64,000 bases of DNA from Actinomycetota bacterium (lineage in GTDB: Bacteria > Actinomycetota > Thermoleophilia > Gaiellales > Gaiellaceae), in NCBI GenBank assembly GCA_005883355.1, contig VAXG01000041.1:1-64000 (forward strand). Direction: 5' to 3'. The position numbers and the translations under genes are program-made. Position 1 is the first letter of the stretch. Each line of letters begins with the position of its first letter. Positions 24,705 to 40,682 of the stretch are shown here, piece by piece. The notes beneath the pieces were generated by a model. That model searched no databases, had not been told where the DNA came from, and saw only the letters and a list, made by a program, of their open reading frames with translations.

Positions 24705-24749
24705 CGCGCGGAAGTCATCATGGCCGCGGAGCGGCCGGACTTCCGCGCG
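24705..24749 (-). terminator. Displaced tRNA-Lys terminator
   Basis: Perfect 12-bp stem CGCGCGGAAGTC/GACTTCCGCGCG enclosing a second hairpin GGCCG..CGGCC. Its inner core (TCATCATGGCCGCG, then AGCGGCCGGA) is shared with the hairpin after the tRNA-Glu gene. On the minus strand it directly follows the partial tRNA-Lys copy, so it is probably the original tRNA terminator pushed away by the cassette insertion. Confidence 0.6.
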
Positions 24750-24797
24750 GAGTGGGCCGGGCAGGGATCGAACCTGCGACCTTGGGATTAAAAGTCC
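24750..24797 (-). repeat. Partial tRNA-Lys copy: distal attachment site
   Basis: 48 bp identical to 30200-30247, covering the tRNA-Lys from just inside the anticodon arm through the T-arm to the discriminator base plus three flanking bases. The 5' half of the tRNA is absent here. This is the expected footprint of site-specific integration into a tRNA 3' end. Confidence 0.85.
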
Positions 24798-25054
24798 GGG
24801 CGGAATGGTTGCGGTCTGCGGCCATTGGCCGAAAGTGGCTGCAACTGTCACAGATCTCCTCCGCAACAAGCTGCAGCTGAAAGTAGGTAGCGGAGACAAG
24901 TCCGTACTCTCATTGGTGCTCGCAGGTGTTGACTTGACAGGCAACTACAGCATCTAACTAAGGGCCTGGGTATCTGTGTGGCTGCTCCCACATGAATCCA
25001 GGTCGCGGGGTCGAAGCAGCAGGAGATAATCGCGTGCATGCTCGAGGAGACACG

Positions 25055-26026
25055 ATGAAGGCAATCGTCCAAGACAGGTACGGCTCGCCGGACGTCCTAG
25101 AACTTAGGGAGATCGAGCGGCCGGTGAATGGGGATGACGATGTGCTTGTTCGGGTACACGCGGCCGGGGTCGATCAGGGCGTCTGGCACGAGGTGGCGGG
25201 ATTGCCGTATCTGTTCCGGATCGCGGGCATCGGTGTGCGCGCGCCCAAGAACCCCATTCCTGGTCACGACGTGGCGGGGACTGTCGAGGCGGTTGGCGAG
25301 AAGGTGACCGGCTTACGGCCGGGCGACGAAGTGTTTGGTACGTGCCGCGGCCCGTTCGCCGAGCACGCGTGCGCCCGAGCGGACCGGCTCGTGCCCAAGC
25401 CGGCGAACCTCAGCTTCGCGCAGGCCGCGGCCGTCCCCACCTCGGCCGCGACCGCCCTCCAGGCTCTGCGCGACAAGGGCAATGTCCGAGCTGGGCAGCG
25501 CGTCTTGATCATCGGCGCCGGCGGTGGGGTGGGGACGTTCGCGGTGCAACTCGCAAAGGCCTACGGCGCGGAGGTGACCGGTGTCTGCAGCACCGCGAAA
25601 ACCGAGCTGGTGCGGTCGCTCGGCGCCGACCACGTCATTGACTACACCCAGGAGGACTTCGCCGACGGCCGCAACCGCCACGACATCATCCTCGACATCG
25701 CCGGGAACCGCTCCCTGTCGCACTTGCGGCGCGCCCTCGCCCGGGAGGGGACGCTCGTGATCGTGGGAGGAGAGGGGGGCGGAAAGTGGTTCGGAGGAAT
25801 CGATCGCCAGCTCAGGGCACAGATGCTCTCGCTGTTTGTGCGTCAGAAGCTGGGTACGCTGATCGCAACCGCGCGCAAAGATGACCTGCGGGTACTGCGC
25901 GAGTTCTTGGAGGCAGGCACGGTCAAGCCGGTTGTCGACAGAACATTCGCGCTGAGCGAGGTTGCAGAGGCCATCCGGTACCTGAGAGAGGGTCATGCGC
26001 GCGGCAAGGTCGTCGTCACCGTCTGA
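25055..26026 (+). CDS. Quinone oxidoreductase-like NAD(P)-dependent MDR protein
   Basis: 323 aa of the medium-chain dehydrogenase/reductase superfamily without catalytic zinc ligands. The N-terminal GroES-like domain contains GHDVAGTVEAVGEKVTGL (about residue 70), and the Rossmann motif GAGGGVGTFAVQLAKAYGA is near 152. The C-terminal ARGKVVVTV is typical of QOR/zeta-crystallin-like enzymes, which reduce quinones or enones. The ATG at 25055 has GAGGAG upstream. It is the only plus-strand gene in the Lys cassette. Confidence 0.9.
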   Translation: MKAIVQDRYGSPDVLELREIERPVNGDDDVLVRVHAAGVDQGVWHEVAGLPYLFRIAGIGVRAPKNPIPGHDVAGTVEAVGEKVTGLRPGDEVFGTCRGPFAEHACARADRLVPKPANLSFAQAAAVPTSAATALQALRDKGNVRAGQRVLIIGAGGGVGTFAVQLAKAYGAEVTGVCSTAKTELVRSLGADHVIDYTQEDFADGRNRHDIILDIAGNRSLSHLRRALAREGTLVIVGGEGGGKWFGGIDRQLRAQMLSLFVRQKLGTLIATARKDDLRVLREFLEAGTVKPVVDRTFALSEVAEAIRYLREGHARGKVVVTV

Positions 26027-26183
26027 GCTGCGCTCGCGTCACCGCTACTTTCGACACGGCGGCCGAGACCTTGGTCGACGAAGGTAATGAGCTCCCAACG
26101 CGCGGTGTAATCGCGGTCCGGGGCCACTCGGATCGCACGGGACGGTCCCTGCGGATGTCGGACACGTAGTTTGATCGCGAAAA

Positions 26184-27563
26184 TCAGCGAGCGATCGCCG
26201 CACCGGATCGAACTGCTTGTACGACGTCCTCGATCGCCCGGCTGGTGGCGGTGGAGGTGCTCTGGTCCTCGAGGAGCGCGGCGTGTGTAGCACCGTTGGT
26301 CCTCTGATGGAGGCTGTTAGAGGAGAGGGTCGCGAGCTTGTTCTGCAAAGCGAACCAGCCCGTTTGCTGCCCCAGATCTGCCGTCAAGACGAAGAGCGGT
26401 TTTCTACCGAGCGTTGTCAGGGCCTTGGCTTGATCGAAGACCGTCGGTAGCTCGGCAAACTCATCGCGATCGGCCCGCAGTTCTCGCGGTGAGGAACTGA
26501 ACGCGCGAGCAGCCCGACGGGCATCGGCAGGCAAACCACCAAAGCTCAGGCCGCTGGTTAGCCGGGCGCCGCCTGCGCGTGCAACCGATGGCAAGAGAGC
26601 AGAAACACCGCGCCACATCGAATAGAAGCCCGGATACGCCGGCAGGTCGAATTGGTCCGGGGACGCGGAGTCGATCAGGGCGACCCCGGCAGTCTCCTTC
26701 GGAAAGTCCATCGCGTAGACGAGTGCGTAGGTGCCACCGACGGAGTGACCGGCAAGGACATAAGGGCCGGGAACGTGCGCAGCCGAGAGAAGCCGGTGGA
26801 GGTCGGCGGCGAGTTGATGTCCATCCTGCCGCTCCGGCGCCTTGCCGCTCCAACCCTGAGCCGCGCGGTCAAAGGTGCAGACGCGAGTCTCTCGAGCGAC
26901 TGCCGGTTGAACCCAAGCCCAGCTTGGGGTTCGTTCGCCGAGGCCGTTGAACAGCACCGCCGTTGGAGATCCTGAGCCGACGCAGTCCAGGAAGAGGCGG
27001 TGGCCATCGACCAGATAGGTGCGACCGGCCGAGGGCGAGTTGGTCGTCGTCGCCTCGGCGACAGTCTCGAAGGCTCCGCCAATTGCGACTAGTCCCAGTG
27101 CGACGAAGGCTGGATAGAGAAGCGCGCGACGCGACCAGTTGTGGAGGGAGCGGCGCGCTCCCCGCAGCGACCAGCCAATCATGATGGCGAGCAGCGGGGG
27201 CCACACCCACCCGAGCAAGCCGAGAACGTGATCGCTCGGCATCAGTGCGATGAGCGGAATACCGACGACCGCGAGGCCCACGGCAGGAGTGAGAGCCCAC
27301 TGCTGCGGCTGGTCTGTTCGCCGACCCGAGAGCGCGAAGAGCGTCAGCATGCCGCAGGCCAGCGAGATCAACGCCGAGCCCGTGATCACTGGTTCGCGTG
27401 CGCCGGCGAACACGACGAGGACGAGGAGGAGGCCAAGAACCAGGCCGCCGAGAATCGACCCAAGCACGATTAGTCCGATGTGGCGCGCTTCGTCCGGGTT
27501 CGCAAGGACGCTCGACTTGCTCGCTGGGTTCCTTGGCTCAGACACGGGGCGTCGCAATCGCAT
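26184..27563 (-). CDS. Alpha/beta hydrolase with N-terminal membrane domain
   Basis: 459 aa. Four or five hydrophobic helices (about residues 28-165) are followed by an alpha/beta-hydrolase domain. Its oxyanion segment is VLFNGLGERTPSW, the nucleophile elbow is AGHSVGGTYAL and a late His is in NGATHAALLED. It is probably a membrane-tethered esterase or epoxide-hydrolase-like enzyme. The start may be the ATG at 27563 or the GTG at 27545, whose GTGTCTGA overlaps the TetR stop. It is the last gene of the MFS-TetR-hydrolase operon. Confidence 0.82.
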   Translation of the reverse strand: MRLRRPVSEPRNPASKSSVLANPDEARHIGLIVLGSILGGLVLGLLLVLVVFAGAREPVITGSALISLACGMLTLFALSGRRTDQPQQWALTPAVGLAVVGIPLIALMPSDHVLGLLGWVWPPLLAIMIGWSLRGARRSLHNWSRRALLYPAFVALGLVAIGGAFETVAEATTTNSPSAGRTYLVDGHRLFLDCVGSGSPTAVLFNGLGERTPSWAWVQPAVARETRVCTFDRAAQGWSGKAPERQDGHQLAADLHRLLSAAHVPGPYVLAGHSVGGTYALVYAMDFPKETAGVALIDSASPDQFDLPAYPGFYSMWRGVSALLPSVARAGGARLTSGLSFGGLPADARRAARAFSSSPRELRADRDEFAELPTVFDQAKALTTLGRKPLFVLTADLGQQTGWFALQNKLATLSSNSLHQRTNGATHAALLEDQSTSTATSRAIEDVVQAVRSGAAIAR

Positions 27564-28149
27564 TGATCGCCGTCGTGAGCATGGCGGCCTCGGCTTCGGA
27601 CTCTGCGATGCGGCCGCCTTGGATTGCTGCGCTGGCGGCGTGCACGATCGCTCGGACTACTGCGAGGTGCCAGGCGACGGGGAGATCGCTCCGGAAGACG
27701 CCTTGTTTCTGGCCGCGTTCGATCAGCGGCTCTATCTGGTCGAGCATGGGGACGTGACGCCGATGGAGCTCCTCGGCCGAGAGCCGGGCGGTGTTCATTG
27801 CGAGCAGGCCGTGGAACTGCGCGAGTTGTCGCCAGGTTGCGCGGAGCACTCGCTCGAGCGCCTCCACCGGCTCGCCGCGCTGGGGCTCGGCGACCCTCAT
27901 CGCCTCGACGACCTGTGCGACCGCGTGTTCCATCACGGCGTCGAGGAGATCCGTCCGAGTCGGGAAGTGGACGTAGATGGTTGCTCTGACCACCCCGGCG
28001 CGGGCAGCGATCTCCGACATGCTGCTGTCGGGATCGCTCGCCAGCGCTTCGAGGGCGGCGTCGAGGATGGCGGCCACGCTGCGTTCGGCGTCGGCCCGGC
28101 GCCGCTTGGGGGCGGGTGCTTCGGCGGGCGTCGTCGTCGGTTTCGTCAT
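27538..28149 (-). CDS. TetR/AcrR-family regulator
   Basis: 203 aa. The N-terminal HTH (about residues 24-70) reads ILDAALEALASDPDSSMSEI, then AGVVRATIYVHFPTRTDLL, the TetR recognition helix pattern. The C-terminal ligand domain is of the common multidrug type. Only 1 nt separates it from the MFS stop, so it is co-transcribed with the exporter it probably represses, with an operator at 29680-29720. The C-terminus overlaps the hydrolase gene. Confidence 0.92.
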   Translation of the reverse strand: MTKPTTTPAEAPAPKRRRADAERSVAAILDAALEALASDPDSSMSEIAARAGVVRATIYVHFPTRTDLLDAVMEHAVAQVVEAMRVAEPQRGEPVEALERVLRATWRQLAQFHGLLAMNTARLSAEELHRRHVPMLDQIEPLIERGQKQGVFRSDLPVAWHLAVVRAIVHAASAAIQGGRIAESEAEAAMLTTAINAIATPRV

Positions 28150-28150
28150 C

Positions 28151-29659
28151 TCAGTGGCTCGGCATCGCGCCGGGGTTCAGCCGCATCTTCGGCACGAAGT
28201 GGCGTGCCCGCGGCAGGACGGCGACAGCGACCAGGCTGGCGACAGCCGCGAGGAGCCCGGCTGCGATGAACGCGTGGGCGATTCCGGATGCGGCCTGTGG
28301 GCCGGCGATGGCGCCGCTTCCGGCGGCGATGGTCGAGAAGATCGCGATCCCTACGGTCCCGCCGATTTCGTGCCCGGTCGAGTTGAGGCCCGAGATCATC
28401 CCGGTCTCCCCTTCGCGGGCGCCGGTGAGGATGGCGATCGAGACCGAGACGACGGCGACGCCGAGCCCGAGTCCGCCGACGAGCATTCCTGGCAGGACGT
28501 CACGGACGTAGCTGCCGTTCTCGCCGACGTGGGCGAGCAGGGTCATGCCGGCGGCGGCGACGAGGAAGGCGCCGGCGAGTGGGCCGCGGACGCCGTGCTT
28601 GCTGACGATGTGTCCGGACGCGTGCGCGCCGACTCCTGCCGCGAGCGCGAGCGGGATAAAGGCGAGGCCGGTCGAGAGCGGCCCCCACCCGAGCACGTTC
28701 TGCAGGTAGAGCGAGCTGAGCAGGAAGAGGCCGAAAATGGAACCGGCTGCGGCGAGCATCAGGAAGAGGCCGCCGCCGACTGCGCGATCGGCCAGGCGCT
28801 CGATCCGCAGGAGCGGTGTGTCGGTGCGCCGCTCGAGAGCCGCGAAGGCCGCGAGCCCGGCGAGACCGCCGAGGCCGAACAGGTGCGTCTGGACCGAGGT
28901 CCAACCGGCACCCTCGGCCTGAGTGATCGCGAAGACGATCGCGCCGAGACTCGTGGTGGCAAGAATGGCGCCACGAAGGTCAAGACCCTTCCAGCGCGGC
29001 TTCTTGGTGTCGGCCGGGATGATCTTCATTGCGGCGATCGCGAGTGCGGCGGCGAGGGGGATGTTGACGTAGAAGATCATCCGCCAGTCGGTGAACTCGG
29101 TCAGGAGGCCACCGACAAGCACGCCGATCGCAGCACCGGCGCCGCCCACCGCGCCCCACGCGGCGAGCGCCTTGGCCCGCTGGCTGCCCTGGAAGGCGGA
29201 CATGATGATCGCGAGCGCAGCCGGGGAGAGCATCGCCGCGCCGAGTCCCTGGCCCGCGCGAGCGGCGAAGAGGGCGCCGGCAGTGCCGGCCATCGCGGAG
29301 GCGAATGAGGAGGTGGTGAAAATGCCGAGGCCGGTCAGGAACATCCTGCGCTTCCCGAGCAGGTCGGCCGCGCGGCCGCCGAAGAGGAGCAGGCTGCCGA
29401 AGATGAGCGAGTAGCTCGTGATCGTCCAGCTGATGTCGGAGCCGGTCAGCTGAAGGTCACTCGCGAGACTCGGCAGGGCGATGTTCACCGCCGTGATGTC
29501 GAGGATGACCATCAGCTGGGCGATCAGCAGGACGAACAGCAGTAGGCCGCTCTTCTCGCTGGTGGCCGCGTCGGGGCGGTGGCCGCCGTGGCGGTGGCGG
29601 GGGCGGGGGCCGTGGGTTCTGTTCGGTGTTTCGGTGGCGGACTTGCTTCGGTGCAGCAT
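28151..29659 (-). CDS. MFS drug exporter, DHA2 (EmrB/QacA) type
   Basis: 502 aa and 14 hydrophobic helices, typical of the 14-TM DHA2 family. After a His/Pro-rich cytoplasmic tail, TM1 has LMVILDITAVNIALPSLASD (motif D1-like) and the loop 2-3 motif A is GGRAADLLGKRRMF. Proton-driven export of toxic organics is the expected role. The ATG at 29659 has AGAGAGGA upstream; the longer frame runs through the promoter and is rejected. It is the first gene of the operon under the TetR-type operator. Confidence 0.92.
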   Translation of the reverse strand: MLHRSKSATETPNRTHGPRPRHRHGGHRPDAATSEKSGLLLFVLLIAQLMVILDITAVNIALPSLASDLQLTGSDISWTITSYSLIFGSLLLFGGRAADLLGKRRMFLTGLGIFTTSSFASAMAGTAGALFAARAGQGLGAAMLSPAALAIIMSAFQGSQRAKALAAWGAVGGAGAAIGVLVGGLLTEFTDWRMIFYVNIPLAAALAIAAMKIIPADTKKPRWKGLDLRGAILATTSLGAIVFAITQAEGAGWTSVQTHLFGLGGLAGLAAFAALERRTDTPLLRIERLADRAVGGGLFLMLAAAGSIFGLFLLSSLYLQNVLGWGPLSTGLAFIPLALAAGVGAHASGHIVSKHGVRGPLAGAFLVAAAGMTLLAHVGENGSYVRDVLPGMLVGGLGLGVAVVSVSIAILTGAREGETGMISGLNSTGHEIGGTVGIAIFSTIAAGSGAIAGPQAASGIAHAFIAAGLLAAVASLVAVAVLPRARHFVPKMRLNPGAMPSH

Positions 29660-29679
29660 CTCGTGTTCCTCTCTAAGTT

Positions 29680-29728
29680 GGACAGTGGTGTCTGGATTAC
29701 TAAAGCAGACACTAGTGTCCGATGTCAA
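29680..29728 (-). promoter_or_regulatory. MFS-TetR operon promoter with embedded operator
   Basis: On the minus strand, TTGACA (29728-29723) is followed after 17-18 nt by CTTTAG/TTTAGT. Inverted arms GGACAGTGGTGTCTG (29680-29694) and CAGACACTAGTGTCC (29706-29720) match at 13 of 15 positions. The right arm contains the perfect 12-bp palindrome GACACTAGTGTC and fills the -35/-10 spacer, an ideal position for repression by TetR. Confidence 0.65.
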
Positions 29729-29729
29729 G

Positions 29730-30077
29730 CGCACGTTCCGTCGAAGCACATCCAGGTCGCTCGAGGAATGGGTGCCACGCCTCCACGACCACGTGCTGTC
29801 CTGGCCGGCGTCGTCGATGGAAAACCCGGATCCCTGCAGCGCCGTCGGGCTGACGAACTTCTCCTGCATTGGCACGGTGAGAAACTCTCGGAAGGCGGCG
29901 AGCGCTTCCTCGTCTTGCAGTTCTTTCCCGTCGTCGCGCGGTCCGGCAGCGAGACGGACCGCATCGGGCCGGTCGTCGAGCAGTGATTCTTCGGGTCGCC
30001 TGCGCGCGACTCGAGCCGCTTCTCTAAACGAGCGGCCGGTCGACCAGGTAACGCCAGAATCGGCGGAAGGACTTCAT
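29730..30077 (-). pseudogene. Possible decayed reading frame upstream of the MFS gene
   Basis: On the minus strand an ATG at about 30077 opens MKSFRRFWRYLVDRPLV and then stops. Shifting by one base continues an open, protein-like frame (LLDDRPDAVRLAAG, then ALAAFREFLTVPMQEKFV, then GFSIDDAGQ) up to the promoter. This could be one frameshifted gene, but the match is to no family I know. Nothing else is evident in 29730-30199. Confidence 0.25.
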
Positions 30078-30199
30078 GGCAAGAGTCTGTCCCGCCGCTC
30101 CACGCGCGTCACTACGGTTGCCCCTACTCTTTGGCGGTGCTACCCGGCGGCTACAGACCGCAGGCGCTGTGGTTAATTACGCCCAATTGCAGGAGATCC

Positions 30200-30247
30200 G
30201 AGTGGGCCGGGCAGGGATCGAACCTGCGACCTTGGGATTAAAAGTCC
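30200..30247 (-). repeat. tRNA-Lys attachment repeat, proximal copy
   Basis: 48-bp segment inside and just beyond the intact tRNA-Lys, identical to 24750-24797. Together they bracket the Lys cassette. Confidence 0.85.
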
Positions 30248-30275
30248 CCTGCTCTACCAACTGAGCTACCGGCCC
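30203..30275 (-). tRNA. tRNA-Lys(TTT)
   Basis: 73 nt. Acceptor stem GGGCCGG/CCGGCCC with discriminator A, D-arm TAGCTCAGTTGGTAGAGC, anticodon loop CTTTTAA (anticodon TTT) and T-arm GCAGGTTCGATCCCTGC. No encoded CCA. It is intact and is the integration target of the 5.4-kb cassette on its 3' side. Immediately downstream on the minus strand no terminator hairpin is seen; the probable original one now lies at 24705-24749. Confidence 0.97.
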
Positions 30276-30403: not shown

Positions 30404-30456
30404 CCGAAAGAGATCCGGCCGCTTCGCGGCCATGATGATCTCTTTCGGCTTTCTCG
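30404..30456 (+). terminator. tRNA-Glu terminator
   Basis: Perfect 11-bp outer stem CCGAAAGAGAT/ATCTCTTTCGG (30404-30414 with 30438-30448), an inner hairpin CCGGCCGCTTCGCGGCC, then CTTTCTCG. Its inner core matches the hairpin at 24705-24749. Confidence 0.85.
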
Positions 30457-30542
30457 TCTCGATTCGCTCCCGATAACGGACGGGCGGGGAACCCAACCAA
30501 TTGCTCGGCGGAGCCCGCGGCCTCCCGTATCGTTAGGCGGCC

Positions 30543-30615
30543 GGGCGGTTAGCTCAGCTGGGAGAGCGCCTGCCTTACAAGCAGGAGGTCGGCGGTTCGA
30601 TCCCGTCACCGCCCA
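30543..30615 (+). tRNA. tRNA-Val(TAC)
   Basis: 73 nt. Acceptor GGGCGGT/ACCGCCC with discriminator A, D-arm TAGCTCAGCTGGGAGAGC, anticodon stem CCTGC/GCAGG with loop CTTACAA (anticodon TAC), T-arm GGCGGTTCGATCCCGTC. Intact. Its 3' 43 nt are repeated at 33476-33518, marking it as the target of the Val cassette. Confidence 0.97.
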
Positions 30616-30742
30616 TCGCAAAACCCTCTGTTTACCAGGGAAACCTGAACGCGAAGGTCTGATGTCATTCCTTCGCGACGCGACTATCTAGCGGACTATC
30701 GAGCTTCTGATCGCTGATGACCGGAATTCCCGGGGCAACCTC

Positions 30743-30928
30743 TCAATTGCCGTGCCTTTCTCGCCACAGCCTGCGGCCGATCCACAGGTACAGGACGACG
30801 CCGACAAGTCCGCCGATGTTGGACGCCCACACCGAGCCGGTGACCCAACGGATGAGTACGCCGACGCCAACCCAGACGAGGAACAGGGTGAAGACAAGTG
30901 CCCTGTACGTCTTCGCTATCTGGATCAT
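30743..30928 (-). CDS. Small two-helix membrane protein
   Basis: 61 aa with two hydrophobic segments (about residues 9-30, ALVFTLFLVWVGVGVLI, and 36-52, NIGGLVGVVLYLWIG) and a basic C-terminus. Family unknown. It starts 3 nt after the HEPN-like gene ends, in the same direction, so the two form a probable operon. The pairing raises the possibility of a membrane partner or immunity role, which is inference only. Confidence 0.5.
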   Translation of the reverse strand: MIQIAKTYRALVFTLFLVWVGVGVLIRWVTGSVWASNIGGLVGVVLYLWIGRRLWRERHGN

Positions 30929-30931
30929 CAG

Positions 30932-31390
30932 TCAGGAGGCGTTGGCGGCGGCGACAGTGAGAGCCTCGACGTGTGTTATCAGAGTGCTGGCGGCACTTAG
31001 GGATGCTTTGGCCTGCTGCGCCGTTGCTTGCTCTCCCTTGTGGACGATCGCGTGGCGGAGATTCGCGTGCGTGGTGTAGCCCTCCCAGAATGACCGTGCC
31101 TTGATCTTGTCTTTCGAGAGCACCACGTAGAGGGCATTCACTCTCTTGTTGTTGAGGTCGTAGTTCCTCGGCAGCAGCTGCTCTCTTTCCTTCCGGGTGA
31201 GGCCGTGCGGTCGAATCAACGTCTCGAACGCAAACTCGGTTACAAGCTCGCAGGCTGTCTGCGCGACGATCACCGCGACGCTGTGTTCGCCCTGCTCCAT
31301 GTAGCGCTTAGCTGTGTCGAGTAATTGCCTGTAATAGGGCGGCACGGGCGCACGCAAGATCGTTGTCGTTCTCCTGCGACGAGCGGCCAT
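30932..31390 (-). CDS. HEPN-like protein
   Basis: 152 aa, all-helical by composition. An early helix pair (YRQLLDTAKRYMEQGEHSVA, then VAQTACELVTEFAFETLI) and a late HANLRHAIVHKG segment give the HEPN arrangement. RHAIVH is an Rx4H motif near residue 114, the catalytic signature of HEPN RNases. Stand-alone HEPN proteins are often RNase toxins or abortive-infection effectors. No MNT antitoxin is adjacent; only the small membrane protein follows. Family call is moderate, toxin role is inference. Confidence 0.55.
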   Translation of the reverse strand: MAARRRRTTTILRAPVPPYYRQLLDTAKRYMEQGEHSVAVIVAQTACELVTEFAFETLIRPHGLTRKEREQLLPRNYDLNNKRVNALYVVLSKDKIKARSFWEGYTTHANLRHAIVHKGEQATAQQAKASLSAASTLITHVEALTVAAANAS

Positions 31391-31416
31391 CTGCGAGGCG
31401 CGATGTACCGCAGCCT

Positions 31417-31563
31417 GTGAGGAGTGGATCCGTCGCGATCGCCATCCTCGCGCCGATCGTGTTCGTGATCGTCGCGACCTACGCGGTGCTCAAGGTCGCG
31501 GTGCTGCTGATCCGGTTGTGTTTCCTTCCCGTCACCGTGCTGCTGGTTCTGAGGCGACGGTGA
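31417..31563 (+). CDS. Very small putative membrane protein
   Basis: 48 aa from the GTG at 31417. Almost entirely hydrophobic (AIAILAPIVFVIVATYAVL, then VAVLLIRLCFLPVTVLLVL) with an RRR tail. The stop overlaps the GTG of the lipoprotein gene (GTGA), which supports it being translated. No family is recognised. Confidence 0.4.
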   Translation: MRSGSVAIAILAPIVFVIVATYAVLKVAVLLIRLCFLPVTVLLVLRRR

Positions 31564-31877
31564 ACCGACAGGTCGTTTTCCTCTGTCTTGCGCTGATTGC
31601 CGCAGGATGTGGCGGGAGCATGCAGAGCGAGGCCGCCGTTCGCATCTACTTCTGCACCACCGGCACCTGCGCGCACGCCGTGACACAAACCCAGATCGTC
31701 GCCGCGACACGTCGGGCATCTAAGAGCCCCCTGGTTGGGAAGGTGATATTGGTCTCCAAGGAAGACACGCTGACGCTGACTCCCAAGCGCCCGGAGAACG
31801 TCGAAAGGGTCGCGGCTCTGTTCATCGCCGCCCCGACATACGGCATCGACAAAATCGTCTACCCCAGTGGCCCGTGA
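31560..31877 (+). CDS. Small lipoprotein, FtsX-extracellular-domain-like
   Basis: 105 aa. The signal peptide ends in a lipobox, LIAAGCGG, with the modified Cys near residue 17. The mature part (VRIYFCTTGTCAHAVTQTQI, then SPLVGKVILVSKEDTL) has the rhythm of the FtsX extracellular domain: a strand, a helix, then V..V.fVSKEdaL. FtsX itself is a four-TM protein, so this would be a free-standing ECD-like lipoprotein; the resemblance is from memory of the motif only. The GTG at 31560 overlaps the upstream small ORF. Confidence 0.5.
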   Translation: MNRQVVFLCLALIAAGCGGSMQSEAAVRIYFCTTGTCAHAVTQTQIVAATRRASKSPLVGKVILVSKEDTLTLTPKRPENVERVAALFIAAPTYGIDKIVYPSGP

Positions 31878-32137
31878 CCTACCGACGCTCGCGACCAGTT
31901 GTTACGCTGCTGCCGACCTGATTCAGAGGTCGGGGCTGGTGCCGGTCGGTATCTCGATAGGCGAACCGAAGTTCCCGCTGAGGTACCCGCCGGTCTACAT
32001 GCGACGGCTCGCTCCGTGGGTTTGCGGGAGCTTGCCGACAACGACGAGTTCGCGAGGCGCTACCGCGAGCGGCTCGACTCGATCGGGGTTGCGGCGGTGC
32101 GGAGGGGCTTCCATTCGATTTCAGGAGCTCGTCGCTC
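31867..32137 (+). pseudogene. DUF488 protein, N-terminal fragment with frameshift
   Basis: From the GTG at 31867, frame 1 reads SGLVPVGISIGEPKFPLRYP and MRRLAP to about 32018. The neighbouring frame continues as VGLRELADNDEFARRYRERL and SIGVAAVRRGFHSIS to about 32130. Joined, these follow the DUF488 pattern through its middle, then sequence similarity stops. The matching C-terminal part lies about 1.06 kb downstream at 33190-33336. So the gene seems frameshifted and interrupted. The rest of 31878-32210 shows no other gene. Confidence 0.5.
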
Positions 32138-32210
32138 ATTTTGCCTCAACCTTGTTGGTGTTTGTTCATCTTATGCTATCTGGACATGTCCCGCCGGGAC
32201 GCTCGGCTCT

Positions 32211-32888
32211 ATGCTCGTGGCAATGGGTGGTGCTGTCTCGCCTCATCTCGCCAGCGGGCTCAAGCAAGAACTAGGGCTCGTCCGCGCAGTCGAGACGGGC
32301 ACGTATCGCGGGTGGAGCGCACGCCGGCTTGCGCGCGTCTTCCCGCGTGTGGTCACGATCGAGCTTTCGCCGCAGCTCCATCAGACCGCGATGAAGACCC
32401 TCCGTGACCTACCTAACGTGGAGTGCAGACTCGGCCGGTCCGTCGATCACCTGAGTGAGCTTGCGCATGAGCGCGTGCCGACGTTGTATTGGCTCGACGC
32501 CCACTGGAGCCCGCTCTTTGAAGCCAGTGCTGGTGAGGCAGATCAATGTCCAGTCCTCGACGAACTCAAGGCGATCGGCCCTGGCGATGCCGCCGATTGC
32601 TTCCTCATTGACGACGCACGGGTGTTCTGCGCTTCGCCCAGGCCGCCCTACGATCCCGAACATTGGCCGACGCTTGCCGAGATATTCGACACGATCCGGG
32701 AACTCCACCCCGGTCATTACCTCACAGTCGTGTCAGACATCGTGATCGGTGTTCCTGCGGGGGCAAAACACGTTGTCGACGAGTTCTCTCGACATCCCGT
32801 TCGTCATTGGCCCCTGGCGGCACGCCTCGCCCGCTATCTCCTGCTTGGAGTCCTCCGCCGCGTGCAAAGGTGGGCTGGAGAAAGATGA
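32211..32888 (+). CDS. SAM-dependent methyltransferase-like protein
   Basis: 225 aa from the ATG at 32211 (ATG 32223 also possible). The N-terminal VRAVETGTYRGWSARRLA resembles motif I of class I methyltransferases (ETGTYRG in place of ExGxGxG), followed by VVTIELSPQ (acidic residue after strand 2). An LYWLDAHWSP segment and DCFLIDDAR lie in the middle. Substrate unknown. It overlaps the PHP phosphatase fragment by ATGA, suggesting both came together from a surface-polysaccharide locus. Confidence 0.6.
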   Translation: MLVAMGGAVSPHLASGLKQELGLVRAVETGTYRGWSARRLARVFPRVVTIELSPQLHQTAMKTLRDLPNVECRLGRSVDHLSELAHERVPTLYWLDAHWSPLFEASAGEADQCPVLDELKAIGPGDAADCFLIDDARVFCASPRPPYDPEHWPTLAEIFDTIRELHPGHYLTVVSDIVIGVPAGAKHVVDEFSRHPVRHWPLAARLARYLLLGVLRRVQRWAGER

Positions 32889-33310
32889 AGTTTCCGACGT
32901 CACGTCGCCGAGGAGGCTTCGTCGACCTCCACACGCACATGGTTCCGTCGGGAGACGACGGGGTCGCAACGATCGAGGAGGCGTTCGCCCTGTTGAGCGA
33001 GGCCGCAGGCCGCGAGACATCACTCCTCTTTGGCACGCCGCATGTCAACGACGATCTGCCGCTCACCCCCGAGCGCGAGCGGGTCGTGCGAGACAAGCCT
33101 CGACGAGCTGCGCAACGCACGCGCGTACGCCCACGAGAACTACAAGCCGCCGAAGGGCGGCTGGCCGACCGCGGACACGCTCAAGCTCAGCCGCGCACGA
33201 TGGACGCGGCTTGGTCTTGCTCTGCTTCGAGAAGCCGGGCGAGTTCTGCCATCGGCGTGTGTTCGCTTCCTGGTACGAGGAGCAGACAGGGCAGCAGGTG
33301 CCGGAGCTAG
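32885..33310 (+). pseudogene. Truncated PHP-type tyrosine phosphatase (CpsB-like)
   Basis: The first ~70 residues match the start of CpsB/YwqE-type protein tyrosine phosphatases: FVDLHTHMVPSGDDGVATIE supplies the first metal ligands, and LLFGTPHVNDD is the next conserved block. After about 33095 the frame continues open but is unrelated and low in sense, while normal members are about 250 aa. It is a truncated gene fused to foreign sequence. Another frame at 33090-33213 (SLDELRNARAYAHENYKPPK) looks like a further gene piece. Confidence 0.6.
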
Positions 33311-33336
33311 CTGACAATCAGTTGGGACTGTTCTGA
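33190..33336 (+). pseudogene. DUF488 protein, C-terminal fragment
   Basis: The frame ending at the TGA 33334-33336 reads SAAHDGRGLVLLCFEKPGEF, then CHRRVFASWYEEQTGQQVPE and ends in NQLGLF. CFE..GE.CHRR.FA.W is the C-terminal signature of DUF488 proteins. No start lies upstream in this frame. It directly continues the interrupted N-terminal fragment at 31867-32137. Confidence 0.55.
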
Positions 33337-33343
33337 CGCGGTT

Positions 33344-33366
33344 CTCGAGCATTTCTCGAGCTTTTG
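33344..33366 (+). terminator. Terminator after the DUF488 remnant
   Basis: Two CTCGAG hexamers (33344-33349 and 33355-33360) pair around a 5-nt loop, followed by CTTTTG. It lies 8 nt after the stop codon of the DUF488 C-terminal fragment. Confidence 0.5.
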
Positions 33367-33475
33367 ACCGCCCCGGGACGCGCTACACCGCGCATTTTGG
33401 AGCCTCGCAAACGCAGAAATCCCATGGACAACACATTTCCCCGCGAGGGAGCGCACCCGTCTGCGAACAGATCGA

Positions 33476-33518
33476 CCTTACAAGCAGGAGGTCGGCGGTT
33501 CGATCCCGTCACCGCCCA
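33476..33518 (+). repeat. Partial tRNA-Val copy: distal attachment site
   Basis: 43 bp identical to the 3' part of tRNA-Val (30573-30615), from the base before the anticodon loop to the discriminator base. The 5' half of the tRNA is missing. Between the DUF488 fragment and the next gene (33337-33683) nothing else is seen apart from this repeat and a hairpin. Confidence 0.85.
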
Positions 33519-33683
33519 CTCGGAATCGCCTAGGGGTTGGGCAAGACCTGCCGAATGAAGCTCGAGGGGCGGGTCCCTGCCGAGCGCCTGGCCGCAGTGC
33601 GTTCGGTTGCCGTCAGAGGACTCGCCCCTCTTTCAACACGACTCGCCTGAGGTTGCAGACCTGCGGTCGATCTGACGACGCGC

Positions 33684-33899
33684 TCAATCGGAGCGCGCTC
33701 GCCGCACGATTGAGCCAAGGCGGTTGAAGAGGGTTGCGGCACAGAAGAAGGGCACTGCCGACAACACATGAACCCAGCGCGGCGCCTCATGGCTGGAGGG
33801 CGAAGCCACCACCGCCATCAGCAAGACCAGGATTCCGAAAACGACGAGCGCCACGGCGATGAGTCTCAGGCCTACGTCGACGACGGACGAAAGTGACAT
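33684..33899 (-). CDS. Small two-helix membrane protein
   Basis: 71 aa with two clear hydrophobic segments (about residues 11-32, LRLIAVALVVFGILVLLMAV, and 43-58, VHVLSAVPFFCAATLF) and a basic tail. No family recognised. It lies just outside the Val cassette, divergent from the SGNH hydrolase gene. Confidence 0.5.
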   Translation of the reverse strand: MSLSSVVDVGLRLIAVALVVFGILVLLMAVVASPSSHEAPRWVHVLSAVPFFCAATLFNRLGSIVRRARSD

Positions 33900-33983
33900 T
33901 GGCCGAGCATCGGACGTCGAACGAGCCTGCTTGAGGTCTTGCCCCGGGTCAAGCGCCGTCTGGTCACTGCCGATGCCTGCGGC

Positions 33984-34829
33984 ATGCGCCCCGTGCTGGG
34001 ACTACTCGCTTGCGCTGTCTGTGGAATCGTCCTTGGGCTCACGCTCTACGCGGGGCTCGTCCACGTCGGGCTCGCGCGCTCCCTATTTGCACCGACTCTA
34101 CGGGGGGACATCGCGCTTGCACGCGGCAACCGTCCAGGCCTTCGTGTCCTGTTCGTCGGCAACAGCTTCACCTTCAAGAACTCATTGCCGGCGCTCGTCC
34201 ACGATCTTGCGGCCGGCGACCCAGGAGCGAGACCGATCTTTTCCGTCGAGTACGCCGCGCCTGGGTGGAGCCTGCACCAGGCTGCCAAGGACGACGGGCT
34301 GACAAAGCTTCTGCGCGAGGTCCACTGGGACGTCGTCGTGCTTCAGGAGAAGAGCTGGCTGCTCTCGTTGCCCGAGGGACAGTGGCGGCGCAGCACCTAT
34401 CCATTCGTGCGCGACTTGCACGAGAAGATCTCCGCCACCGGTGCTCGCACCATCCTCTTCATGACCTGGGGCTACGCGCTCGGCGACCGGTGGAACGAAC
34501 CGCATGACACGTACGCGTCAATGCAGACGCGCCTTGCCGCCGGCTACTCGAGGCTCGGCCTGGAGCTCGGTGCCCAGGTCGCACCTGTCGGGCTTGCGTG
34601 GGCGGAGGCACTTCGCCGCGAGCCGGGCCTCGAGCTTTGGGCGGACGACGGCAAGCATCCGGGGCGCAACGGCTCGTACCTCGCAGCCTGTGTGTTCTAC
34701 GCAACGCTCACCGGGCGCGATCCGGCTCGAAGCGGCTTCGCAGCCGGCCTCGACCCTGAGCAAGCACGCTTCCTCCAGCAGGTCGCCGAGAACGAGCACG
34801 AGGCGGCCGCCCTGAGCGGGTCGAACTAG
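33984..34829 (+). CDS. Membrane-anchored SGNH/GDSL-like hydrolase
   Basis: 281 aa from the ATG at 33984 (a TTG at 33939 is also open). An N-terminal helix (about residues 4-25, LGLLACAVCGIVLGLTLYAG) anchors it outside the membrane. VLFVGNSFTF (about 55-64) is block I with Ser as nucleophile, VVVLQEKSW is in the block III position, and DDGKHPGRNGSYLAA (near 235) carries the Asp/His pair. An acyl- or acetyl-esterase acting on envelope glycans or lipids is plausible. It precedes the oxoamine synthase operon. Confidence 0.75.
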   Translation: MRPVLGLLACAVCGIVLGLTLYAGLVHVGLARSLFAPTLRGDIALARGNRPGLRVLFVGNSFTFKNSLPALVHDLAAGDPGARPIFSVEYAAPGWSLHQAAKDDGLTKLLREVHWDVVVLQEKSWLLSLPEGQWRRSTYPFVRDLHEKISATGARTILFMTWGYALGDRWNEPHDTYASMQTRLAAGYSRLGLELGAQVAPVGLAWAEALRREPGLELWADDGKHPGRNGSYLAACVFYATLTGRDPARSGFAAGLDPEQARFLQQVAENEHEAAALSGSN

Positions 34830-34852
34830 GTGTCCGGCGGCCCCTCGACCTG

Positions 34853-34902
34853 GGGTCCAGACTGGGTGTTGACTCCTGTTGTCAACGCCGTAGGCTGGAC
34901 CC
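34853..34902 (+). promoter_or_regulatory. Promoter with palindromic operator for the 34938 operon
   Basis: TTGACT (34869-34874), 16-nt spacer, TAGGCT (34891-34896). The -35 overlaps the palindrome GTTGAC-7nt-GTCAAC (34868-34886). Outer arms GGGTCCAG (34853-34860) and CTGGACCC (34895-34902) are also perfectly complementary. It may be a repressor site or a nested hairpin. Confidence 0.6.
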
Positions 34903-34937
34903 TCAAGATCGAGTCGGATCCGGCCGATGGTGGCTGA

Positions 34938-36230
34938 GTGACTGCGCGCGCATCCGCCGGCCCCAGGGCTGGGTTGGCCGCTCCCGCTTGGATCGACAAG
35001 TGGCTCGCGGCCTGCCATGACCTCGACGAGCTCGGACGCTCTCATCCGATGAGCGACGCGGTGATCGACGAGATCGACGGTCGCATGATTCGCGTCGGCG
35101 ACAAATGGCTTGCGGACTTCGCGTCCTGCAACTACCTGGGGCTCGACCTCGACCGCGAGATCATCGACGCCGTCCCCGCGTTTCTCCAGAAGTGGGGGAC
35201 GCATCCGAGCTGGTCACGCCTGCTTGGCAGTCCTGTTCTGTACTCGCAGATCGAGGAACGCCTCGCCGCACTGGTCGGCGCCGAGGACACGCTCGTCCTG
35301 CCGACGATCACGCTGATCCACATGTCCGTGATTCCCGTGCTGGCGGGCAGCGGCACGATCTACGTCGAATCCCGGGCGCACAAGACGATTTACGAGGGCT
35401 GCCAGCTCGCCGGTGCCCGTGGCGCGACGCTGAAGAGGTTCCAATTCGAGGACGCCGACGATCTGGAACGGCTCCTCAAAGAGAACGGTCCTTCGCCACG
35501 CTTGATCTGTATCGACGGCGTCAACAGCATGACCGGTAACGCGGTCGATTTGCCGGCCTTCGCACGGCTCGCTCGCGCCTATGACGCTCTCTTGTACGTC
35601 GACGACGCCCACGGGTTCGGTGTCATCGGCGAGCGAAGCGACGACGAGCTCAGCCCGTACGGTAACCGTGGGAACAGCATCGTTCGTTACACCGGCGACA
35701 CGTACGCCAATGTCGTGCTCGTCTCGGGACTGTCGAAGGCCTACTCGTCGCTCGCCGCGTTCCTGACGTGTTCGCCGGAGCTGAAGCGCCTGCTGAAGAC
35801 GGCCGCTCCGCCGTATCTCTATTCCGGCCCGTCTCCCATCGCCTCTCTCGCCACCGTCCTCGTCGGGCTGGACGTGAACGAGAAGCGCGGTGACGCCATT
35901 CGCGCCGATCTCTGGCGCAAGACGGCGGCCGTGCTCAAGGAACTCGACCGCCTCGGCGTCCACACGCCGAATCGATCGGGATTCCCCATCATCGAGGTGC
36001 CACTCGCGCGCCACGAGGACATCGACGCCGTCGGGCGGTACCTCTTCGATAACGGCATCTACGTGACGCTTGCCGCCTATCCGCTCGTTCCGAGAAGCGA
36101 GGTCGGATTCCGCGTCCAGGTCACGGCCGCGAACACCGACGCCGAGATCGAGCAGTTGATCGACGTGCTCGGCCGGCTCATAAACGTCTTCGACCTTCAG
36201 CCGGCACGCACGAGCGAGCGCGCCGCATGA
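34938..36230 (+). CDS. Alpha-oxoamine synthase family PLP enzyme
   Basis: 430 aa, fold type I, of the family including serine palmitoyltransferase, KBL and BioF, which condense an amino acid with an acyl-CoA/ACP. Visible motifs: ASCNYLGLD (about 62-70), the cofactor-binding VDDAHGFGVIG (221-231) and the Schiff-base Lys267 in SGLSKAYSS. The starting acyl group is unknown; sphingolipid-like or signal-molecule synthesis are options. The start is a GTG at 34938. Its stop overlaps the next gene by ATGA, coupling it to a c-di-GMP enzyme. Confidence 0.85.
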   Translation: MTARASAGPRAGLAAPAWIDKWLAACHDLDELGRSHPMSDAVIDEIDGRMIRVGDKWLADFASCNYLGLDLDREIIDAVPAFLQKWGTHPSWSRLLGSPVLYSQIEERLAALVGAEDTLVLPTITLIHMSVIPVLAGSGTIYVESRAHKTIYEGCQLAGARGATLKRFQFEDADDLERLLKENGPSPRLICIDGVNSMTGNAVDLPAFARLARAYDALLYVDDAHGFGVIGERSDDELSPYGNRGNSIVRYTGDTYANVVLVSGLSKAYSSLAAFLTCSPELKRLLKTAAPPYLYSGPSPIASLATVLVGLDVNEKRGDAIRADLWRKTAAVLKELDRLGVHTPNRSGFPIIEVPLARHEDIDAVGRYLFDNGIYVTLAAYPLVPRSEVGFRVQVTAANTDAEIEQLIDVLGRLINVFDLQPARTSERAA

Positions 36231-39200
36231 GACGCCTTGCCCTGACCGGGACAGCACGCGAGCAGGTCTGGATCTGGTACCTGGCCGGCACCGGCGTTCT
36301 CACGAGCCTGTACCTCTTCGCGCCGCCACTCGCAGGCAATGGTCCGCTGATCAACCTACTGGGCCTTTCCGGCGTCGTCGCGATCGTCGTTGGAATCCGG
36401 ATGCACAAGCCACGCGCTCGTGCGGCGTGGTGGCTCTTCGCAGCAGGACAGTTCCTCTTCTTCAGCGGCGACCTCTACACGTACAGCTATCCCAAGCTGC
36501 TCGGCGCGGATGTCGGCTTCCCGTCGATCGGCGACGCGCTCTATCTCCTGGTCTATCCCGTCCTCATGGCGGGACTGTTCATCCTGATCAAGCGACGCAA
36601 CCCGCGGCCCGACCGGACCGCGCTCATCGACGCGCTGATCCTCACGATTGGTATCGGCCTGCTGTCGTGGGTGTTCCTGATCGCTCCGAACATCCATCTC
36701 ACCGGCCTGTCCCTGCTGGCCAACGCGGTGTCGGTCGCGTACCCGCTGGGCGACGTGCTCCTCCTCGCGGCTGCGATCAGGCTCGCGGTCGATGCCGGGA
36801 AGCGAACGCCGGCGTTCTGGTTCCTCGTCAGCAGCATCGTCTGTCTGATGGCCACGGACTCGGCCTACAACTATGCGCTGCTGAAGAACACGTACAACCA
36901 CCAGCTGATCTACGACGCCGGTTGGATCCTCTATTACCTGCTGTGGGGTGCGGCGGCGCTGCACCCGTCGATGCGCTCGCTCGAGGAAGGGGCGCCGGAG
37001 CTCGGCACGCGTCTGACTCCTCTCCGGCTCACGCTGCTCGGCAGCGCCTGTCTGATCGCGCCGGGTATTCGTTTCGTCCAGGCGCTTAGCAACCCCGACT
37101 TGCTCGTCCTGATCATTGCTTCTGCGGTTCTGTTTCTGCTGGTCGTCGCGAGGATGGCCGGCCTTGTGCGCCAGGAGGCGCGCGTCGTGTCGCGCGAACG
37201 CGCTCTTCGCGGGGCCGGCGTCGAGCTCGTGGCGGCAGCCGGTCATGAGCAAGTCGCAGAAGCTGCCATCTCCGCCGTCCATCGCCTGCTCGCCGCCGAG
37301 CCGCCCGTGCGACTCGTCCTCGTATCGGAAGGCGCAGCGGTCGTCGAGGCCTCGTCCGACGGTGCCACCGGCGGTCGCGTCGGTCAGGGAACGTGCGACT
37401 GGCTCCTACAGGAGCGTTCGGGTTCGCTTCGCGTGCTGCATTCCGACCCACCCCCTTATGTCAGAGGGGACCTGAGGCTTCCTGAAGGGAACGCGACGAT
37501 CGTCGCCCCGCTGACCGTTCGCGGCGAAGTCCGCGGCGCGATCGTCATCTCATCGCCGGTGAGCCTGACGCGCGATCTCATCGACGCGCTCGGCGCCCTC
37601 GCGACGCAGGTCTCGCTCGCGGTCGAAGGGGCATCGCTGGCAGAGGATCTCCATCGACGCCAGAGCGAGGCCCGTTTCCGCTCCCTCGTCGCGCACTCCA
37701 GCGACTTGATCACGGTTTTGGACGCCGACGGTCTCATCACGTACCAGAGCCCGTCCGTGGAGCGACTGCTCGGCTACCGTGTGGACGAGGTCGAGGGGAC
37801 GCGGTTCGACCGACTACTGAGCGAGACCGACCGGCCGCTGCTCGCTCAACTGATCGCAGTCGACGGCTCGGGCGACGGCGAGGCCCATACGATCGAGTGC
37901 TCGGTCAGTCACAAGGACGGCGCGACCCTGAGGTTCGAGGTCCAGCACACCGACCTCCTCCACGACGAGCACGTTCGCGGCATCGTGCTCAATTGCCGCG
38001 ACGTCAGCGAGCGCAAGGCTTTCGAGGAGCAGCTCGCTCACCAGGCGTTCCACGACCCGGTAACGAAGCTCGCCAACCGTGCGTTGTTCTCCGACCGAGT
38101 CGAGCACGCCCTGATGCGCACGCAGCGCGGCGTGCACGAGATCGCCGTCATGTTCATCGACCTCGACGACTTCAAGACCGTGAACGACAGCCTGGGTCAC
38201 GCGGCCGGGGACGAGGTCTTGCAAGAGGTCGGCCGCCGGCTGAAGATCGCCGTCCGCCCGGGTGACACCGTCGCACGCTTCGGAGGAGACGAGTTCGCTG
38301 TCCTGCTCGACGGAGTGGCTGGCTCGTCGGACGCTGCCGATGCCGCGGCGCGAATCCTGCGAGCGCTCGACCTCCCGATCGAGATCGAGGGCAAGAATGT
38401 GTTTCCACGGGCGAGCGTTGGGATCTGCCTGGTTGGAGAGGACATCGAGACGCCGGAGGCGTCTGAGCTCCTGCGCAATGCCGACGTCGCGATGTACATG
38501 GCCAAGCGCGACAGCAAGGGCAGCTACCGCGTCTTCGAGCCGACGATGCACGAGCGCGTTGTCGAACGACTAGAGCTCCGATCGGATCTGCAGCACGCGC
38601 TGACCATGGATCAGCTCGAGTTGCACTACCAGCCGGTCGTGAGGCTCTCCGACCGCGAGATTCTCGGAGTCGAGGCGCTCGTGCGCTGGAACCATCCCAC
38701 GCGCGGCACGATTCCGCCGATTCAGTTCATACCGGTAGCCGAGGAGACAGGCCTGATCATCCCGATGGGGCGCTGGATCCTCGAAACGGCCTGCCGCGAA
38801 GGCGCTCGTCTCCAGGAGTCCTTCCCGCGGACCGCGCCGTTGACGATGAGCGTGAACCTCTCGGTCAGGCAGCTGCAGTCCGAAACGCTCGTGGCGGACG
38901 TGCGCCAGGCGCTCGAAGTCACGGGGCTGCCGGCGGCGGCACTGGTTCTGGAGATCACCGAGTCGCTGATGCTCACCGACACCGACTTCGCCATGATGCA
39001 GCTCCACGAGCTCAAGGGGCTCGGCATCCGGCTTGCGATGGACGACTTCGGAACCGGCTACTCGTCACTCAGCTATCTGAGTCGATTCCCCGTCGACATT
39101 CTCAAAATGGACAGATCGTTCGTCGGGGCCGAGGAGAACAGCACCCTGACGTCGGCGATCATCGCGCTCGGCACGAGCCTCTCGCTCGAGGTCGTCGCGG

Positions 39201-39376
39201 AGGGAATCGAGCTTCCCGAGCAGGCCAGCTCGCTCGAAGAGCTCGGGTGCGAGCTCGGGCAGGGATTCCTCTTCGCACGACCGATGGATTCGGGTGCGTT
39301 GACGAAGTTCCTCACGGTTGCCGGCGCGTCGACTCAGGAAGACGTCGAGTCGTCAGCAGCCTCCAATGCAGCATAG
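36227..39376 (+). CDS. GAF-PAS-GGDEF-EAL c-di-GMP enzyme with membrane sensor
   Basis: 1049 aa. About nine hydrophobic helices occupy residues 10-320 (a MASE-like sensor), then a GAF-like region (about 330-470), a PAS domain (about 485-605; SLVAHSSDLITVLDADGLIT), GGDEF (about 610-770) and EAL (about 790-1035). The active motifs look intact: RFGGDEFAV, then GVEALVRWNHP, DDFGTGYSSLSYL and VVAEGIEL. It could both make and degrade c-di-GMP. It is coupled (ATGA) to the oxoamine synthase and overlaps the MFS gene by 11 nt. Confidence 0.93.
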   Translation: MRRLALTGTAREQVWIWYLAGTGVLTSLYLFAPPLAGNGPLINLLGLSGVVAIVVGIRMHKPRARAAWWLFAAGQFLFFSGDLYTYSYPKLLGADVGFPSIGDALYLLVYPVLMAGLFILIKRRNPRPDRTALIDALILTIGIGLLSWVFLIAPNIHLTGLSLLANAVSVAYPLGDVLLLAAAIRLAVDAGKRTPAFWFLVSSIVCLMATDSAYNYALLKNTYNHQLIYDAGWILYYLLWGAAALHPSMRSLEEGAPELGTRLTPLRLTLLGSACLIAPGIRFVQALSNPDLLVLIIASAVLFLLVVARMAGLVRQEARVVSRERALRGAGVELVAAAGHEQVAEAAISAVHRLLAAEPPVRLVLVSEGAAVVEASSDGATGGRVGQGTCDWLLQERSGSLRVLHSDPPPYVRGDLRLPEGNATIVAPLTVRGEVRGAIVISSPVSLTRDLIDALGALATQVSLAVEGASLAEDLHRRQSEARFRSLVAHSSDLITVLDADGLITYQSPSVERLLGYRVDEVEGTRFDRLLSETDRPLLAQLIAVDGSGDGEAHTIECSVSHKDGATLRFEVQHTDLLHDEHVRGIVLNCRDVSERKAFEEQLAHQAFHDPVTKLANRALFSDRVEHALMRTQRGVHEIAVMFIDLDDFKTVNDSLGHAAGDEVLQEVGRRLKIAVRPGDTVARFGGDEFAVLLDGVAGSSDAADAAARILRALDLPIEIEGKNVFPRASVGICLVGEDIETPEASELLRNADVAMYMAKRDSKGSYRVFEPTMHERVVERLELRSDLQHALTMDQLELHYQPVVRLSDREILGVEALVRWNHPTRGTIPPIQFIPVAEETGLIIPMGRWILETACREGARLQESFPRTAPLTMSVNLSVRQLQSETLVADVRQALEVTGLPAAALVLEITESLMLTDTDFAMMQLHELKGLGIRLAMDDFGTGYSSLSYLSRFPVDILKMDRSFVGAEENSTLTSAIIALGTSLSLEVVAEGIELPEQASSLEELGCELGQGFLFARPMDSGALTKFLTVAGASTQEDVESSAASNAA

Positions 39377-40673: not shown

Positions 40674-40682
40674 CCTCTTCGC

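Follow-up and report, generated by a model that had tools for sequence, protein, structure and literature searches.

Only tyrosine recombinases had been known to target tRNA genes, and the anticodon loop is one standard crossover site (PMC4383910). An integrase-less element that has retained its attachment (att) sites is defined as a cis-mobilizable element (CIME; PMC5704250), and 15 ssrA islands of Dehalococcoides have been described without an integration module (PMC3146451). In this study, a 64,000-nucleotide stretch of contig VAXG01000041.1 from an Actinomycetota bacterium of the Gaiellaceae (assembly GCA_005883355.1), hereafter the window, was analyzed for an insert lying directly downstream of a tRNA-Val(TAC) gene and closed by a copy of the 3′ half of that gene. 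With a probability of about 0.8, 30616–33518 is an element that inserted at tRNA-Val and is now a CIME-type remnant island, its integration module either lost or never present.

The arrangement of the tRNA gene and its copy carries this reading. The original prediction had described an intact tRNA-Val whose last 43 nt recur at 33476–33518, and ARAGORN, Rfam and a 43/43 identity confirmed this. The 43-nt repeat is the longest direct repeat within 30500–41000, and the anticodon loop at which it begins (CTTACAA) lies at 30574–30580. An exact copy of the precise tRNA 3′ end, downstream and in the same orientation, is far beyond chance, and the intact tRNA, the downstream insert and the 3′ fragment at the far end together have the geometry that integration by a tyrosine recombinase would leave.

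The DNA between the two copies differs from its surroundings. With a G+C of 0.620, where the window averages 0.662, it falls at the 0.1 percentile among 2.86-kb windows, and its coding fraction is 0.57 vs. about 0.95 in the flanks. Apart from a piece of about 190 bp of a CpsB gene, the insert DNA was absent in 60 relatives. The cassette had been predicted to lack an integrase, and this was borne out: the Phage_integrase profile (PF00589) gave zero matches on the contig that carries the insert (C157), and a tblastn comparison of the integrase fragments of relatives with the window returned nothing significant. Domain, PHROG and profile searches recognized no integration or transfer genes in the insert, and no phage structural, replication or packaging gene there matched PHROGs. 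Judged by the combination of an own integrase with a relaxase or conjugation genes, the insert is neither an integrative and mobilizable element (IME) nor an integrative and conjugative element (ICE). That the insert at tRNA-Val is foreign and free of an integrase is well supported.

The same tRNA gene has been used repeatedly in related genomes, most of which are fragmented assemblies; genes in them were predicted from codon usage with a simple caller for which the window had served as training set. The tRNA cluster lies near a conserved cation-efflux/SDR/glycoside-hydrolase block, and the stretch from tRNA-Val to this block varies between genomes. Fragments of tRNA-Val in G008, G022, G033, G016, G177, G249 and L153 have the same breakpoint within 1–2 nt, except for a second, shorter fragment of L153 (36 nt). 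In detail, G008 carries 27 kb behind tRNA-Val, closed by an exact 45-nt fragment, and G022 carries 6 kb, and in both a broken tyrosine integrase immediately follows the tRNA; in G177 the fragment is adjoined by an integrase end; and in G033 and G016 the fragment is present while the intact tRNA is not on the contig. The integrase at this tRNA is intact, broken or missing, depending on the relative. When GTDB genomes were scanned with a 43-mer, contig L153 (JAICNR010000139.1) emerged; its tRNA-Val has two recombinase-free cassettes stacked behind it, one of 3.34 kb and one of about 0.5 kb. This contig is labelled Gemmatimonadetes and has the same tRNA-Glu/Val pair and the exact tRNA-Val sequence; it may belong to this class and have been mis-binned.

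Conservation of the partial tRNA-Val and its flanks across relatives, which would speak against an insertion, was contradicted, as the interval downstream of the tRNA differs in nearly every relative. Repeated insertion, also proposed in the original prediction, holds for the tRNA-Lys/Glu/Val locus, with two insertions in the window and others in G008, G022, G249, L153 and G002. It was not supported inside the cassette, where repeat and tRNA searches found no nested att copy or further tRNA fragment, nor did they between 33518 and 41000; the broken genes of the cassette fit deletion and decay equally well.

Filled and empty versions of the site were found in a sister genus of the same family (g10). 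G249 has the filled site: behind its tRNA-Val come 6.5 kb, a fragment with one mismatch within a 41-nt motif, and then a gene starting MRQLVRG. The site is empty in G238, where this gene directly follows tRNA-Val, as it also does in G164 and G231. The 203 bp from the G249 fragment onward aligned at 79% to G238, where the tRNA 3′ end runs uninterrupted into the DNA downstream. No integrase was recognized in the 6.5-kb block of G249, and the genes there are unbroken. The pair shows integration at this tRNA, though not integration of the window cassette itself.

Integration targeted to the tRNA anticodon loop by a tyrosine recombinase would explain the repeat, the breakpoints, the sites in relatives and the empty/filled pair. 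In such a process, an attP site containing the 3′ half of tRNA-Val(TAC) would recombine site-specifically with the chromosomal tRNA-Val, with the crossover at the anticodon loop and a tyrosine recombinase as the probable catalyst. The tRNA would be rebuilt from the sequence of the element, and the old 3′ half displaced to the far end; the element would end up without a recombinase or transfer gene and with its cargo partly broken, while its two att sites may still be usable. Instead of site-specific recombination, duplication in tandem or of a whole segment could have copied the tRNA 3′ half, or the assembly could have joined the pieces by chance. Fragments of the 5′ part of tRNA-Tyr and tRNA-Ser do occur in the same genome (L111:7797–7826 and L121:9777–9810), upstream of the intact genes at distances given as about 220 bp and as about 120–150 bp, as a different kind of tRNA duplication. 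Against such an origin, which is very improbable here, stand the shared anticodon-loop breakpoint, the constant occurrence of the fragments as 3′ halves, downstream and in the same orientation, the integrases at homologous sites, and the empty/filled pair.

Several points weigh against the reading as a remnant island. An empty site, that is, tRNA-Val joined to the DNA after 33518, had been suggested as a check, and for this exact cassette it was seen in no relative; among relatives, no significant match to 33519–34002 exceeded 33 bp, and G003, the most similar relative in the region, gave no hit for tRNA-Val(TAC). Further, the insert bears no integrase remnant, a 43/43 identity next to broken cargo is not quite what an old remnant would lead one to expect, and the genomes involved include metagenome assemblies.

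The surroundings of tRNA genes were screened in the genome of the window (53 tRNAs) and in two members of the class, G133 (45) and part of G252 (39); the search for fragments covered up to 20 kb of surrounding sequence per tRNA, and fragments were counted when they were at least 26 nt long and reached the tRNA 3′ end. Each of the 16 such 3′ fragments lay downstream of the tRNA that it copies and shared its orientation; zero were reversed. Seven of the 16 intervals contained a recombinase, namely six tyrosine recombinases (one truncated) and one serine recombinase, the serine type being judged from gene lists with no separate profile search. The other nine were recombinase-free: Val(TAC), Lys, Val(GAC), Leu and a weak Thr in the genome of the window, Arg (65 bp) in G133, and Met and two at Trp in G252. 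Absence of a recombinase is less certain for Val(GAC), since the interval is partly masked, and the tRNA-Thr(CGT) fragment (27 nt, one mismatch) is weak and was not relied on. The genome of the window has four further well-supported intervals (Lys, Val(GAC), Pro and Leu); the one at Pro contains a truncated integrase remnant along with a DUF1778/GNAT-like toxin-antitoxin pair. The serine recombinase is in a tRNA-Asp interval of G252 (contig C24, 251–6770, L210) that has a 27-nt fragment and also encodes an AAA ATPase and a subtilase-like protein. This large recombinase adjoins the tRNA and is of an unusual type for a tRNA target; no tyrosine integrase was found in the interval, which was counted as recombinase-bearing.

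These recombinase-free intervals bear on another origin, in which the window cassette never had an integrase and was a non-autonomous element with a life cycle like that of a satellite or cassette: tRNA-Val-specific integrases of other elements, acting in trans, would integrate, stack and excise it. Such an origin is unlikely, yet the nine of 16 intervals speak for it, as do stacked cassettes elsewhere. Behind tRNA-Trp of G252 (contig C9, about 77000–79200, L143 and L142), two recombinase-free cassettes are stacked, one of 1.35 kb with a HicB-like gene and a homologue of the window HEPN protein, the other of 0.70 kb with a MazEF-like pair, and each is closed by an exact 42-nt tRNA fragment. 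Both have a common arm of about 70 bp (shuffle z 15.5), in which tandem CTGTCCCyGC motifs precede the fragment; such sharing would be expected were a single integrase to act on the two cassettes. At tRNA-Lys of G002 (L035:12197–13908), two perfectly identical 856-bp cassettes are in tandem, each with a tRNA 3′ copy at its end. The two stacked cassettes of L153 and the unbroken, integrase-free genes of G249, both at tRNA-Val, point the same way, and the perfect att identity of the window cassette keeps the idea alive.

Against movement in trans, no att arm is common to the window cassette and any other tRNA-Val fragment, the two Trp cassettes of G252 being the only ones with a shared arm, and the cassette holds broken genes; decay was favored for these two reasons. 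The integrase was probably lost rather than supplied in trans. Besides Xer-like genes, the only integrase-sized open reading frame (ORF) found in the same genome is on contig C67 and has no link to tRNA-Val, and a further integrase ORF on C49 is truncated. The C67 integrase (354 aa, tyrosine type) belongs to a small element (L095:10600–14700) with a ParB-like protein, upstream of groES/groEL. A wider reading, likewise improbable, concerns this bacterial class as a whole: small recombinase-free cassettes of 0.5–7 kb with toxin-antitoxin, HEPN and membrane or lipoprotein genes would form stackable arrays at tRNA 3′ ends, with shared tRNA-specific integrases inserting and removing them in trans. 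They would then amount to an integron-like cassette system whose attachment sites are tRNA halves, and the window cassette would be one of its members, in decay.

The features of the window are collected in Table 1.

Table 1. Features of the tRNA-Val insert and of the adjacent tRNA-Lys locus, in window coordinates
Feature	Coordinates	Strand	Evidence or remark
tRNA-Val(TAC), intact	30543–30615	+	ARAGORN; Rfam 69.5 bits; putative regenerated target / near att site
43-nt core repeat (tRNA nt 31–73)	30573–30615	+	Exact repeat; begins at anticodon loop
Displaced tRNA-Val 3′ fragment, putative far att site	33476–33518	+	43/43 identity
Integrase-free insert	30616–33475		2860 bp, low G+C, 57% coding
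61-aa membrane protein ORF	30743–30928	-	Family matches all sub-threshold
HEPN-like protein, 152 aa	30932–31390	-	R-x4-H motif (R112, H117)
48-aa membrane ORF, weak	31417–31563	+	Gene caller
Lipoprotein, signal MNRQVVFLCLALIAAGCGG	31560–31877	+	Weak likeness to FtsX extracellular domain
Class I methyltransferase-like ORF	32211–32888	+	Methyltransf_24 E 0.047; atypical codon use
CpsB/CapC-type PHP phosphatase, truncated to its N-terminal part	32885–33091	+	PF19567 E 3.4e-6
DUF488-like gene, C-terminal remnant	33193–33336	+	PHROG 2450 E 3.6e-10; DUF488 weak
tRNA-Lys(TTT)	30202–30275	-	Target of neighbouring insertion, opposite direction
Displaced tRNA-Lys 3′ fragment	24750–24797	-	46 nt of tRNA exact + 2 nt

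Domain and gene searches upheld the predicted cargo of a HEPN-like protein, small membrane proteins, a lipoprotein and broken genes. R112 and H117 of the HEPN-like protein are invariant across seven weak homologues, three of which gave sub-threshold matches to Pfam HEPN PF05168 (best E 0.008). A model built from the single sequence had a pTM of 0.65, and its top Foldseek matches were mostly HEPN proteins and Csm6 (E 0.1–0.6; up to 1.7 with AbiV). By these sequence and model comparisons, membership of the 152-aa protein in the HEPN superfamily, which is marked by a four-helix fold and an R-x4-6-H motif, is likely, not proven; no relatives of it were found in viral contigs, plasmids or phages. 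For the lipoprotein, a longer version of the ORF matched FtsX_ECD with E 0.21, and the methyltransferase-like ORF has the lowest coding score per residue within the window. The cut-off CpsB/CapC gene runs into the tail of the DUF488-like gene; an intact paralogue lies on contig C21 of the same genome, and the tblastn match covers residues 1–70 of 236 at 61%.

On the other side of the tRNA cluster, the tRNA-Lys arrangement mirrors that of tRNA-Val, with the 3′ copy 5.4 kb to the left, so that the inserts extend in opposite directions from a single tRNA-Lys/Glu/Val cluster. The 5.4-kb tRNA-Lys cassette (24750–30275) encodes an MFS transporter, a TetR regulator, an alpha/beta hydrolase and a zinc-type dehydrogenase, and the same-genus G008 without it represents the empty state for that insert. 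A 25-nt palindromic element is found inverted at 24715–24739, beyond the tRNA-Lys fragment, and at 30414–30438, after tRNA-Glu; it resembles a shared terminator, which would suggest that the DNA left of 24750 is the original tRNA-Lys trailer. To the right, a cluster with an aminotransferase, a GGDEF/EAL protein and an MFS gene (34974–40673) is at this place in the window and in G003, and elsewhere in G007, G009 and G022.

Standard island finders accept only intervals that contain an integrase and therefore overlook such islands. Of the tRNA-fragment intervals mapped in the three screened genomes, over half are recombinase-free, some of them tiny, stacked and with defence-like genes. If these were moved in trans, very small gene cassettes would have their loading docks at tRNA genes in this little-studied lineage; if they are remnants and no more, such intervals still pinpoint sites of variable genes.

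In its structure, as far as it can be read from the DNA, the window element corresponds to the definition of a CIME and is best filed as one, that is, as a known kind of island, although typical CIMEs are much larger than its 2.9 kb. As in CIMEs such as those beside ICESt1 relatives (PMC5704250), att sites, here putative, are kept, integration and transfer genes are missing, and accretion is in tandem at one target gene; unlike for those, no related ICE or IME of origin was found here. Compared with the Islander tDNA islands (PMC4383910), it has the same intact tRNA, correctly oriented displaced 3′ fragment and anticodon-loop crossover, but the Islander filter would reject it for want of an integrase, and the length filter would also drop members below 2 kb such as the Trp cassettes of G252. 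Tycheposons of Prochlorococcus and Methylophilaceae (PMC10872708) were described with a tyrosine recombinase and at 4–200 kb, unlike the recombinase-free window element, and are likewise cargo elements with tRNA-gene borders. The ssrA islands of Dehalococcoides (PMC3146451) differ in their target, ssrA, in a T-loop crossover, in other cargo and in a Ccr-like integrase, but they too are stacked behind an RNA gene, each closed by a copy of its 3′ end.

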